Origin: Oscillospiraceae bacterium
GTDB lineage: Bacteria > Bacillota > Clostridia > Oscillospirales > Ruminococcaceae
Length of the DNA stretch: 64,000 nucleotides
NCBI GenBank assembly: GCA_018434245.1
Contig: JAHDPQ010000142.1
Span: forward strand, 34,757 to 98,756
Direction: 5' to 3'
Below the pieces are notes generated by a model. That model was given only the letters and a program-made list of their open reading frames with translations, did no database searches and was not told the DNA's origin. The position numbers were made by a program, and so were the translations under genes. Of this stretch, positions 4,341 to 63,958 are shown piece by piece. Within the stretch, counting starts at the first letter, position 1, and every line of letters begins with the position of its first letter.

Positions 4341-4675
4341 GCGAGCAAGCAAGGAAGCGGCCAAAGGCTAAAACCTTTGGAGGAAAGTCCGGGCTCCACA
4401 GGGCAGGATAGCTGTTAATGGCAGCCGAGGGCGACCTTAGGGCTAGTGCAACAGAAAATTACCGCTCTTTGATAGAGTAAGGGTGAAAAGGCGAGGTAAG
4501 AGCTCACCAGGGTGCAGGAGACTGTATCGCTGTGTAAACCCTATCCGGAGCAACACCGACAGGAGGCAATGCGGCGGCCCGCCGGGCCTTCGAAAGGTGG
4601 CTTGACGCCCCGCGGCGACGCAGGGCGCAGATAGATCGTTTCCCAATACAGAACCCGGCTTATATGTTTGGTCGC
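4341..4675 (+). ncRNA. rnpB: RNase P RNA component
   Basis: This catalytic RNA removes 5' leaders from pre-tRNAs. Conserved blocks are present in order: GAGGAAAGTCCGGGCTCCAC near 4380, ACAGAAAATTACCGC near 4451, GGTAAGAGCTCACCAG near 4495, AAACCCTATCCGGAGCAA near 4537, and the 3' block with AGATAGATCGTTTC and ACAGAACCCGGCTTA. The ends were set by P1 pairing of GCGA-CAAGC at the 5' end with GTTTG-TCGC at the 3' end. About 335 nt. It is probably type A, as in most Clostridia, but I did not fold the whole molecule. Confidence 0.96.
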
Positions 4676-4679
4676 ACTG

Positions 4680-7414: not shown

Positions 7415-8120
7415 CCTTTCCAAGGCCTTTGGGAATCATTTGGTGTTGGACGGCATCAACGAGCGGATTGAAAAAGGGGAAAAAGTAGTGGTAGTAGGGC
7501 CTTCTGGCTCGGGAAAATCCACCTTTTTGCGCTGTCTCAACCTGCTGGAACAGCCCACCGGGGGCGAAATCATCTTTGAGGGGCAGAACATCACCGACCC
7601 TAAAACCAACATCAACCTGCTGCGCCGCAAAATGGGGATGGTGTTTCAGCAGTTCAACCTCTTTCCCCATCTGAGCGTCAAGAAGAACATTACTCTCGCC
7701 CCCGTCACTCTGGGGCTTTGTTCCCAGCGGGAAGCCGACGAAAAGGCCATGACTCTGCTGGAGAGAATTAGCCTTGTGGACAAGGCGGAGGCCTATCCCC
7801 GCCAGCTTTCGGGGGGCCAGCAGCAGCGGATTGCCATTGTGCGGGCCCTGGCCATGAACCCCGAGGTGATGCTCTTTGACGAGCCTACCTCGGCTTTGGA
7901 CCCCGAAATGGTGGGAGAAGTGCTGGAAGTGATGCGGGAGCTGGCTCGGGATGGCATGACCATGGTGGTGGTCACCCACGAGATGGGCTTTGCCCGGGAA
8001 GCTGCCACCCGTGTTTTGTTCATGGACGAGGGCCAAATCAAAGAGCAGGCGCCCCCCGACCAGTTCTTCAGTAGCCCCCAGCACCCCCGACTTAAGGAGT
8101 TCCTTCACAAGGTACTTTAA
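7392..8120 (+). CDS. Amino-acid ABC transporter ATP-binding protein
   Basis: A 242-residue cytoplasmic ATPase that powers the permease. It has Walker [11 protein letters not shown]-loop [11 protein letters not shown], signature LSGGQQQR, Walker [10 protein letters not shown] and switch His in VVTHEMGFA, all typical of the polar amino-acid (GlnQ/HisP) group. The start is uncertain: GTG 7392 or GTG 7398, both served by AAGGAGG at 7381. It lies inside the end of the permease gene and is followed by a strong terminator. Confidence 0.94.
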
Positions 8121-8151
8121 TCCAACGCTCCAACACAACAAAAAAGAACGG

Positions 8152-8190
8152 GAGAGGTTCTGCCGCCAAGGAGAGAACCTCTCTTTTTTA
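8152..8190 (+). terminator. Terminator of the amino-acid transporter operon
   Basis: GAGAGGTTC pairs with GAACCTCTC, followed by six Ts. Confidence 0.85.
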
Positions 8191-8273
8191 CGTTTTCAAA
8201 GGAAGTAGGGCTACAATTTAAGAAAGAATTATTATAAACAAAGGGTAATAAAATCAAAAATATTGCAGCTTGT

Positions 8274-8311
8274 AAACCGGTTAACCTATCAAATTGCACA
8301 ATATTAAAGGG
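8274..8311 (+). promoter_or_regulatory. Palindromic operator plus conserved block upstream of the LacI gene
   Basis: AAACCGGTTAAC (8274-8285) contains the perfect palindrome AACCGGTT. CACAATATTAAAGGG follows at 8297-8311. Both elements recur before the kdu operon near 9506-9558, which marks them as a probable binding and promoter unit for the LacI-type protein encoded here. Confidence 0.6.
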
Positions 8312-61679: not shown

Positions 61680-63395
61680 ATGACAAGGGAAGAGACATTG
61701 TATCGCCTGTGGCTGGAAAAAACCGCTCAGGATACCGAGGCCCAACAGGATTTAATCGCCATTCAAAGTGACCCGGAGGAAATTAAGGAGCGATTTTACC
61801 GGGAGCTTTCCTTCGGGACAGCGGGGCTGCGGGGAATTCTGGGGATGGGCACCAACCGGATGAACTGCTATGTGGTGGGCCGGGCTACCCAAGGCCTTGC
61901 CAAATACGTCCTGAGCACGGGAGTCAAGAATCCCAGCGCCTCCATTGCCTACGATTCCCGCAACTGCTCGGAGCAGTTTGCCCGCCATGCCGCCTGTGTG
62001 TTTGCCGCAAACGGAGTCAAGGTTTACCTCTATCAGGAGCTGATGCCCACTCCGGCTCTTTCCTATGCGGTGCGGGAGCTGGGCTGCGACACCGGGGTGG
62101 TGATCACTGCAAGCCACAACCCCGCTGCCTACAACGGCTTTAAAGCCTATGACCCCACCGGCTGCCAGATCGGCACCGAAATCGCCGATCGGGTGCAGCA
62201 GGAGATTCTGGGCACCGATTTGTTTGACGGGGTGCACTGCGCCGATTTTGACAAAGCCCTGGAAGACGGCATGATCCAGTACATTCCGGCTTCCTTTGTG
62301 GAGCAGTATCTGGACCGGGTCTATGCCCAGTCTCTGGAGCCTCAGGTGTGTGCCAAGGCGGGGCTTAAGCTGGTGTATACCCCCCTTAACGGGGCGGGGA
62401 ATAAAGCAGTCCGCCATATGTTCAAGCGGCTGGGTATCAAGGATGTCAAGGTTGTTCCCGAGCAGGAGCATCCCGACGGCAACTTCCCCACCTGCCCTTA
62501 TCCCAACCCGGAATCCCCGGCGGCTCTGGAATTGGGGCTCCGCCTGTGTGAAGAAACAGGGGCCGACATCCTCCTTGCCACCGATCCCGACTGCGACCGG
62601 GTGGCAACGGCTGTCCTTCACGAGGGGAAGTACCGGATTCTTTCCGGCAACGAGCTGGGCATTCTGATGCTGGATTATATCTGCCGCACCCGGAAAAAGC
62701 TGGGAAAAATGCCGGAGCATCCGGTAGCCATTCGCTCCCTGGTCAGCTCCGCCATGACCGACAAAGTGGCGGAACGCTACGGGGTGGAGCTGCGCAAGGT
62801 GCTCACCGGCTTTAAGTATGTGGGTGAGGTGATTGCCGGGCTGGAGGCCGAACACCGTGGGGACAGCTTTATCTTTGCTTTTGAGGAGAGCTGCGGCTAT
62901 CTTTCCGGCGGCTATGTCCGGGACAAGGATGGCGTGGATGCCTGCCTTCTGGTAGCGGAGTTGGCCAGTGCCGCCAAGCTGGAGGGCAAGACTTTGGCAG
63001 ACTGGCTGGAAGAGCTGTATCAGAAGCACGGAGTCTGGCGCAGCGATGTGGATAACTTTATTTTTGAGGGAGCTTCCGGTATGCAGGCTATGGCGGATAT
63101 TATGGAGCGGCTGCGCAACCATCCTCCCGCCGATCTGGCCGGGGATGAGGTAGTTTCTGTTCTGGATTATCAAACCGGGCGGGAGATCTCCAAGGGGCAA
63201 AGCCGGGGAGTGAAGCTACCTTTTACCAACATGATAGAGCTTAGGCTGGAAAACAACAACACCATTCTGGTAAGGCCTTCGGGAACCGAGCCGAAGATCA
63301 AGGTTTACTACACCATCATCGCCCAAAGCCACGCCCAAGCAGCAGATGTTGCGCAGGCCTACCGCAAGGCTGGTAAATCTTTGATTCAGGGATAG
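61680..63395 (+). CDS. pgcA: Phosphoglucomutase / phosphomannomutase (alpha-D-phosphohexomutase)
   Basis: A 571-residue enzyme interconverting glucose 1-phosphate and glucose 6-phosphate, which links glycogen phosphorolysis to glycolysis. The phospho-Ser loop reads VITASHNPAAYNG, the metal site ATDPDCDRV, the sugar loop FAFEESCGY, and the phosphate site VRPSGTEPKIK. The length fits the PgcA-like group of Firmicutes. GGGAGG precedes ATG 61680. Confidence 0.95.
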   Translation: MTREETLYRLWLEKTAQDTEAQQDLIAIQSDPEEIKERFYRELSFGTAGLRGILGMGTNRMNCYVVGRATQGLAKYVLSTGVKNPSASIAYDSRNCSEQFARHAACVFAANGVKVYLYQELMPTPALSYAVRELGCDTGVVITASHNPAAYNGFKAYDPTGCQIGTEIADRVQQEILGTDLFDGVHCADFDKALEDGMIQYIPASFVEQYLDRVYAQSLEPQVCAKAGLKLVYTPLNGAGNKAVRHMFKRLGIKDVKVVPEQEHPDGNFPTCPYPNPESPAALELGLRLCEETGADILLATDPDCDRVATAVLHEGKYRILSGNELGILMLDYICRTRKKLGKMPEHPVAIRSLVSSAMTDKVAERYGVELRKVLTGFKYVGEVIAGLEAEHRGDSFIFAFEESCGYLSGGYVRDKDGVDACLLVAELASAAKLEGKTLADWLEELYQKHGVWRSDVDNFIFEGASGMQAMADIMERLRNHPPADLAGDEVVSVLDYQTGREISKGQSRGVKLPFTNMIELRLENNNTILVRPSGTEPKIKVYYTIIAQSHAQAADVAQAYRKAGKSLIQG

Positions 63396-63503: not shown

Positions 63504-63532
63504 TTGACGCGAGTGGCGATTTATTGTATAAT
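63504..63532 (+). promoter_or_regulatory. SigA promoter of the tRNA-Leu gene
   Basis: TTGACG (63504-63509), 17-bp spacer, TATAAT (63527-63532), 24 bases before the tRNA 5' end. Confidence 0.85.
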
Positions 63533-63555: not shown

Positions 63556-63865
63556 GCCGCTGTGGCGGAACAGGCAGACGCAAGGGACTTCAGAAGGAGC
63601 GCATGGAGGGGAAACCGCCATGTGGATGCTGTCAAATTCGGTGAACACCCACCTGCATAATAGTGGGCAACGCCGAGCCAAGCCGGCAAATGCGCCGGAA
63701 GGTGTAGAGACTATACGGCAGCCGCCTAAACCGGAACCTCGGCAGGGCGAAGACATAGTCCGGGCTACAACGCAAGAAACATTGCGGCACGGGTAACCGT
63801 GTGTGGTGGAGAAAATCCCTCGATGGTTAAACATCGTACGGGTTCGAGTCCCGTCAGCGGCACCA
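63556..63865 (+). tRNA. tRNA-Leu (UAA) interrupted by a group I intron
   Basis: The exons are 63556-63590 and 63812-63865 (89 nt joined, CCA encoded). Joined, they form acceptor GCCGCTG/CAGCGGC, anticodon stem AGGGA/TCCCT with loop CTTAAAA (anticodon TAA), a long variable arm, and the T arm ACGGG/CCCGT. The break lies between positions 34 and 35 of the anticodon. Without removal of the insert no tRNA fold is possible. Confidence 0.9.
63591..63811 (+). ncRNA. Group I self-splicing intron in tRNA-Leu(UAA)
   Basis: A 221-nt insert without a reading frame. The 5' exon ends in U and the intron ends in G (63811), as in group I introns. Core pairing P7 is seen as GACTAT (63709-63714) with ATAGTC (63755-63760), in the typical contexts AGACTATACGGC and AAGACATAGTCC. 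GAG at 63597-63599 could pair with exon CUU as a short P1 with a U-G at the splice site. The insertion position is that of the cyanobacterial tRNA-Leu(UAA) intron. Confidence 0.88.
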
Positions 63866-63921: not shown

Positions 63922-63958
63922 AAGAGCTTCCACGATGAAAAGTGGAAGCTCTTTTTTC
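63922..63958 (+). terminator. Terminator of the tRNA-Leu gene
   Basis: AAGAGCTTCCAC pairs with GTGGAAGCTCTT over an 8-base loop, followed by six Ts. Confidence 0.9.

Follow-up and report, generated by a model that had tools for sequence, protein, structure and literature searches.

The window, a stretch of 64,000 nt from the draft genome of an Oscillospiraceae bacterium, carries at 63556–63865 on the plus strand a tRNA-Leu(UAA) gene that is interrupted after U34 by a group I intron of 221 nt. The encoded molecule is a complete class II tRNA-Leu, with a seven-pair acceptor stem, D arm, anticodon stem (AGGGA/TCCCT), long variable arm, T arm and encoded CCA. Its 5′ exon (63556–63590), similar to exons of relatives, ends in GGGACUU with U34 as the last base; the intron occupies 63591–63811, and the 3′ exon (63812–63865) begins with AAAA and continues through stem, variable arm, T arm and acceptor strand to CCA. 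Joining 63590 to 63812 gives the anticodon loop CU-UAA-AA. A preliminary description of this DNA had recognized two tRNA-Leu halves 221 nt apart, a 5′ exon ending in U34 and an intron ending in G, all of which were confirmed at 63556–63865.

On the 5′ side of the gene lies a promoter-like sequence, TTGACG-17-TATAAT (63504–63532, plus strand; one found versus 0.3 expected), and on the 3′ side a terminator-like hairpin with a T run (63922–63953, plus strand; two in the region versus 1.1 expected), both being matches to a consensus only. The upstream neighbour (61680–63395, plus strand) belongs to the phosphohexomutase family, and the same neighbour precedes the same intron-bearing tRNA gene in assemblies of two other species (genomes G200 and G204). 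Elsewhere in the window a class A RNase P RNA was detected at 4342–4678 on the plus strand (267 bits).

As the preliminary description had proposed, the locus was searched with the Rfam group I intron model RF00028. A permissive scan gave a full-length match (model positions 1–253) at 63581–63786 with an E value of 1.7e-9, but its 42.0 bits fall under the gathering score of 50 bits, a database threshold that reflects no biological feature and because of which a default Rfam scan omits the intron. The threshold was reached by the relatives L002, L004 and L005. The window intron was the sole RF00028 match across the whole draft genome, and ARAGORN called no tRNA at 63556–63865. The RNA strand folded better than 100 out of 100 shuffled sequences (z −3.46).

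RF00028 also revealed the same gene in three family members, with introns of 209–217 nt, which were aligned with the window in four rows, a small alignment whose structure was drawn from the window. In this alignment 90.8 % of cells were paired as drawn, and 25 pairs over tRNA and intron had changed on both sides, compared with 10.8 ± 2.5 in shuffles and 0–5 for slid structures. P1 (63588–63599) consists of C63588–G63599, U63589–A63598, the splice-site wobble U63590·G63597 and C63591–G63596; it was paired throughout the four rows (100 %) with one compensatory change, and the wobble was kept in 4/4. The core pairings P3 (63628–63633 with 63717–63722) and P7 (GACTAT at 63709–63714 with ATAGTC at 63755–63760) were both backed by covariation in the relatives, with both-side changes at three pairs and one pair, respectively. 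The P7 strands are those already picked out in the preliminary description, and their innermost (sixth) pair was formed in the window only. P4 (63638–63643 with 63671–63676), placed by RF00028, was paired in 4/4 rows with one-sided changes only, whilst both-side changes affected two pairs of P5 (63648–63652 with 63663–63667) and four and three pairs of the two P9-region hairpins (63771–63786 and 63788–63801, spanning 63771–63801). The P8 hairpin (63723–63749) has an outer stem of 63723–63726 with 63746–63749. P2 as drawn was paired in merely 35.7 % of cells, and this helix is therefore either wrongly drawn or variable between rows. All these elements lie on the plus strand, as does the terminal omega G of the intron at 63811. 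With its full-length RF00028 match, covarying core, P1 U·G wobble and terminal G, the element in the window was confirmed as a group I intron of tRNA-Leu(UAA), as first proposed.

The transcript is predicted to fold into a P1–P9 ribozyme. By established group I chemistry, guanosine would cut after U34 at the U·G pair of P1, the 5′ exon would then attack behind the terminal G, and the ligated exons would form the UAA anticodon loop. None of the three frames of at least 60 codons that overlap the intron matched a Pfam endonuclease family (none above cut-off), in agreement with the preliminary description, which had found no endonuclease. The intron is not of the IStron type, as the 221 nt separating the exons are too short to include an insertion sequence with a transposase.

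The host draft genome is 91 % complete and consists of 185 contigs. No intact tRNA-Leu(UAA) was found in it, either among the 41 RF00005 matches (loci L011–L050) or by a pattern for the intact anticodon arm, which is consistent with the suggestion in the preliminary description that the interrupted gene encodes the only tRNA reading UUA. The four other tRNA-Leu genes have the anticodons UAG, CAA, CAG and GAG. UUA is rare but used, accounting for 16 of the 631 leucine codons in 11 genes of the window and occurring in seven of the 11. As no intact UAA copy was detected, splicing of the window intron is probably essential to the host. One weak tRNA-like match in the same genome (L050, G000 contig C43; 30.8 bits) received no call from ARAGORN.

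A dead gene, or an artefact of assembly or binning with a normal tRNA-Leu(UAA) among the sequence that the draft lacks, would be compatible with the completeness of 91 %, the 185 contigs, the position of the gene near a contig end and the failure to find some further expected tRNAs, for example Ile(GAU), in this genome. We consider this very unlikely given that the same gene and neighbour recur in G200 and G204 and that the exons and core helices are intact, with compensatory change. The intact-arm pattern was, moreover, absent from 17 of 19 intron-bearing family genomes, several of them 97–100 % complete; among 13 family genomes from other genera that lacked a match to the family intron model introduced below, it was present in 10. 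In G150, G199 and G201 the gene is intact but has other stems and is overlooked by the pattern; absence by pattern is therefore a limited test. G298 possesses a second, intact tRNA-Leu(UAA) gene without encoded CCA besides its intron-bearing copy, and a truncated tRNA-Leu 5′ half is found in G221, one of the 19 genomes.

The preliminary description had called the genome Clostridia-like, and this placement was borne out by the family of the host, which includes Ruminococcus albus 8. A core covariance model of 139 positions (R1), built from the introns of this family, matched in 20 of 396 sampled family genomes, a lower bound because of strict filters. In 18 of the 396 (12 of 126 genera) the intron is in tRNA-Leu(UAA), and the other two matches (L070 and L071) are located elsewhere judging by their context. 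The family introns comprise type A, which resembles the window intron, type B (L059–L068 and L072), which is divergent, and one odd case, L069. The type B core of R. albus 8 (L156) is identical to that at locus L067 of G396, whilst G214 (L305, 18595–18997) has a complete gene with a type B intron of 403 nt that includes extra sequence before the core. Within the 11 genomes of the window's genus, four had an R1 match (one of them cut by a contig end), four had an intact gene (G051, G150, G199 and G201) and in three neither intron nor intact gene was found. When 30 genomes without an R1 match were scanned with a 5′-exon pattern, 17 had an uninterrupted tRNA-Leu(UAA) (two cut short or containing N), and none of the matches read in these 30 genomes was interrupted. 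In the stretches examined, neither the four intron-free genus mates nor G203 shared tRNA-Leu(UAA) neighbours with the window, so that no orthologous locus allows the intron to be compared cleanly with its empty site. The intron is patchy in the family, and its history appears to have been at least partly horizontal.

In G221 (L303, position 5490) and G199 (L301, position 985) the complete gene is preceded, at a distance of 243 and 181 bases, respectively, by a truncated 5′ half of tRNA-Leu, perhaps the remnant of an integration event. The view that the intron is driven or selected for by elements that insert at the anticodon region has these two halves as its basis and was set aside.

R1 also matched tRNA introns of cyanobacteria, those of tRNA-Leu and, by eye, those of fMet and Arg tRNAs. 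The tRNA introns of cyanobacteria (Leu, fMet and Arg) are classed in the literature as subgroup IC3, to which plastid tRNA-Leu(UAA) introns also belong; Paquin et al. reportedly dealt with the group I introns in cyanobacterial and plastid tRNA-Leu(UAA) in 1997. R1 matched in 25 of 98 sampled cyanobacterial genomes, and among the 30 cyanobacterial loci listed 14 were in tRNA-Leu and others, by eye, in fMet or Arg tRNAs. In the same sample, compact introns were seen by eye in tRNA-Asn-like genes (L282, L284 and L288).

In the order-wide sample R1 matched three of 394 genomes, namely the window's own and two outside tRNA-Leu by context, and in the phylum-wide sample five of 398, namely the window's own, L310 and three others. 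By eye, the gene that holds the group I intron L310 (G1152), from another genome of the phylum, is tRNA-Ile(CAU)-like. A pattern scan of named genomes for a tRNA-Leu exon before an R1-like core gave at least 118 stretches; 80 loci were among the matches listed, mostly from Pseudomonadota and also from Acidobacteriota and Binatota, a subset that says nothing on frequency. All 100 sources (listed and family loci) matched R1. Of the 100 rows, 91 (88 distinct introns, family included) had two readable exons, and 91 of 91 were cut after U34 and ended in G. The listed loci L081–L160 from Pseudomonadota, Acidobacteriota and Binatota share this site, with a terminal G wherever both exons could be read, and their cores matched R1 with up to 110 bits. 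Partial matches on plasmids numbered four, all from Mycetohabitans. Insertion after U34 is no cyanobacterial speciality; the preliminary description was right that cyanobacteria have an intron at this point, but its frame was too narrow for a site that is occupied in viral contigs, in Pseudomonadota and in further phyla as well.

The relationships of the introns were examined in core-only trees, built from 123–131 R1 columns with modest support and a program warning about the few columns, and in a full-intron tree of 206 columns with 66 chosen introns of up to 340 nt, taken from the 166 extractable of 198 aligned rows. For the R1-core comparisons 77 loci were chosen in one set and 99 in another. 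The 99-row core tree, from which the cut-off L054 was left out, comprised 66 rows from Pseudomonadota, five from Acidobacteriota, two from Binatota, one from Cyanobacteriota, three named Bacillota, 19 from the family, genus or host itself and three unplaced. L069 joined type B on a long branch in this tree and was in neither of the two core trees used for AU tests (without and with viral rows) nor in the full-intron tree. The core tree without viral rows left out L069, L107, L113, L295, L288, L283, L287, L281, L285 and L286.

The window intron shares with the cyanobacterial tRNA-Leu(UAA) introns the tRNA, the insertion point and the match to one core model, as a recent import from cyanobacteria or plastids would predict. 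The cyanobacteria sampled belong, however, to another phylum, and their tRNA-Leu introns form a clade of their own away from the family introns, which the preliminary description had suggested comparing with them in a phylogeny. The clade held 11 of 12 cyanobacterial rows (100/99) in the core tree without viral rows, eight of nine (100/99) in the viral core tree and six of seven (100/100) in the full-intron tree; the stray L267 grouped with Acidobacteriota or gammaproteobacteria. For nine of nine family introns the best pairwise score reached by a cyanobacterial intron was also lower than that of any other group compared. Such an import is barely credible, and a cyanobacterial origin of the window intron was supported by neither the core-only nor the full-intron trees.

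Relatives of the intron were found in phages. When phage records were searched by blastn with the gene, the one match, covering 39 % of the gene, was in the 595-kb uncultured phage LR756511.1 (L314), whose tRNA-Leu(UAA) has a 700-nt intron at the same site (L314 1530–2229); a frame of 189 codons in this intron matches the Pfam HNH family (26.3 bits, cut-off 21.4). A pattern scan of viral contigs, whose viral status rests on the source collection, yielded 54 stretches. In every one a tRNA-Leu 5′ exon is followed by an R1 core, and in 52 the 3′ exon is present too, giving 35 distinct introns. The intron ended in G in 49 of these 52; L324, L338 and L339 have T before the AAAATCC of the 3′ exon, so that the boundary may differ by one base in these three. 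ARAGORN found four or more other tRNA genes at eight of 13 viral loci, one at another and none at four. Frames from four viral contigs matched phage protein families in five of ten cases. The viral introns (L315–L368 and L314) resemble the window intron in tRNA and core, but the phage exons read differ from those of the family, so that exchange of whole genes was not seen, and a 20-mer specific to the window was absent from the viral contigs.

In the full-intron tree, 14 family rows and the viral rows L368, L334, L348, L320, L347, L396 and L373 formed one set (100/100), and no further cellular row among the 66 chosen fell inside it. The loci from other bacterial phyla (L081–L160), 23 of which were chosen for this tree (one unplaced), lay outside. 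Six of the seven viral loci sit among four to 16 other tRNA genes, and no other tRNA gene occurs in the 7.5 kb of L334. Two of the contigs are short (L368, 32 kb; L348, 34 kb). In L368 an adjacent tRNA that resembles tRNA-Thr contains another group I intron, in which an HNH frame is found (7889–8305, 23.3 bits). In the core tree with viral rows, the family introns L055 and L058 paired with viral L368 (100/100), but beside gammaproteobacterial rows. L055 was 91.1 % identical to L368 (190 positions) and 88.8 % identical to its family mate L058 (196 positions), gaps left out. The phage link is supported for L055 and L058 by both kinds of tree and holds with lesser certainty for the type B introns, whose join with L373 in the full-intron tree drew a program warning of long branches. 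No tree showed a viral intron as sister of the window's own lineage. Ranked by alignment score, the best matches of the window intron outside its genus were L056 (83.1 %) and L057 (78.8 %) in the family, and proteobacterial L096 (79.3 %) and viral L343 (83.0 %) outside it.

A single old acquisition followed by vertical inheritance in the family with many losses, the phage copies having been picked up from hosts, would account for several of these results. In a MetRS tree (26 rows, one gene) types A and B were mostly in different host clades, as vertical inheritance would give, and the window, G204 and G200 have the upstream phosphohexomutase gene in common. Nor did the core trees reject one family clade: p-AU was 0.283 without viral rows, and once these were included it was 0.059 for both types taken together and 0.273 for type A. 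In the full-intron tree, on the other hand, a clade made up of the family introns alone was rejected (p-AU 0.0038), with a p-AU of 0.071 for one made up of type A. In the MetRS tree G235 (type A) and G214 (type B) paired together, apart from the other hosts of their types, and the labels A, B, C and none required at least seven changes. Together with an intron detected in just 18 of 396 genomes, itself a lower bound, these results leave purely vertical descent a doubtful account, if a serious one.

We therefore prefer, with a probability of roughly 80 %, to read the locus as a functional tRNA-Leu(UAA) gene with a small, endonuclease-free group I intron that is one of a widespread bacterial group of tRNA introns and whose history in the R. 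albus family is patchy and at least partly horizontal. Phages with intron-bearing tRNA-Leu genes are, from the trees, candidate carriers of part of the family's introns. The preliminary description had offered long residence or mobilization in trans, and the phage relatives, one of them with an HNH gene, now provide a candidate source. A bolder version, tentative though quite conceivable, is that phage tRNA arrays are both reservoir and carrier, and that the R. albus family took up the intron repeatedly in an HNH-driven process before coming to depend on it for UUA; uptake might then use the conserved anticodon arm as the target of homing or of gene conversion, with phage HNH endonucleases acting in cis or in trans. 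As far as sequences can tell, the presence of related introns in tRNA genes of phages and other bacteria hints that phages may help to spread tRNA introns.

The kind of intron is already known. The intron of Azoarcus tRNA-Ile(CAU) is a small IC3 tRNA intron with a similar core, in a different tRNA. A gammaproteobacterial tRNA-Leu intron has also reportedly been described, and BOGUAY, a Beggiatoa, and Thiomargarita are both Gammaproteobacteria. For these two, the accessible text of one report describes an interrupted tRNA-Leu-TAA with a putative group I intron and a gene missing from the annotation (PMC4853749), which by that description alone is like the window in having a group I intron in tRNA-Leu(UAA) outside the cyanobacteria. 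In the accessible parts of other papers, cyanobacteria and some alpha- and betaproteobacteria are named by reviews as hosts of tRNA group I introns (PMC4033280; PMC11408192), structural RNAs, tRNAs particularly, are said to be sometimes invaded (PMC8172020), phage introns are described in protein genes (PMC7886860; PMC10580990), and a review of bacterial group I introns names no tRNA case from Clostridia (PMC3984707). The literature searched, which included few subscription papers and was partly accessible, contained no report of group I introns in tRNA-Leu of Clostridia or of intron-bearing tRNA-Leu in phages, and neither the Clostridia host group nor the phage link was met there. The classic tRNA-Leu(UAA) intron is now placed in a family of Clostridia. 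Since both ARAGORN and the Rfam gathering threshold miss the gene, such genomes can seem to be without an essential tRNA. Intron-bearing and intron-free species of one genus, together with phage relatives, offer a setting in which the spread of endonuclease-free tRNA introns can be compared.

Two further patterns were run on the viral contigs. One with few fixed bases gave mostly chance hits (R1 matches in 17 of 55 stretches) and was discarded. The other added 30 new loci, all with R1 matches, of at most 112 bits compared with 146 for the window. Among the viral loci, L354 has an intact tRNA-Leu(UAA) call besides the intron-bearing one (87–164 and 1408–1539), L394 and L415 have R1 matches without tRNA-Leu exons, seemingly within protein genes, and L435 and L452 each have three R1 matches within about 6 kb and may be copies of one sequence.
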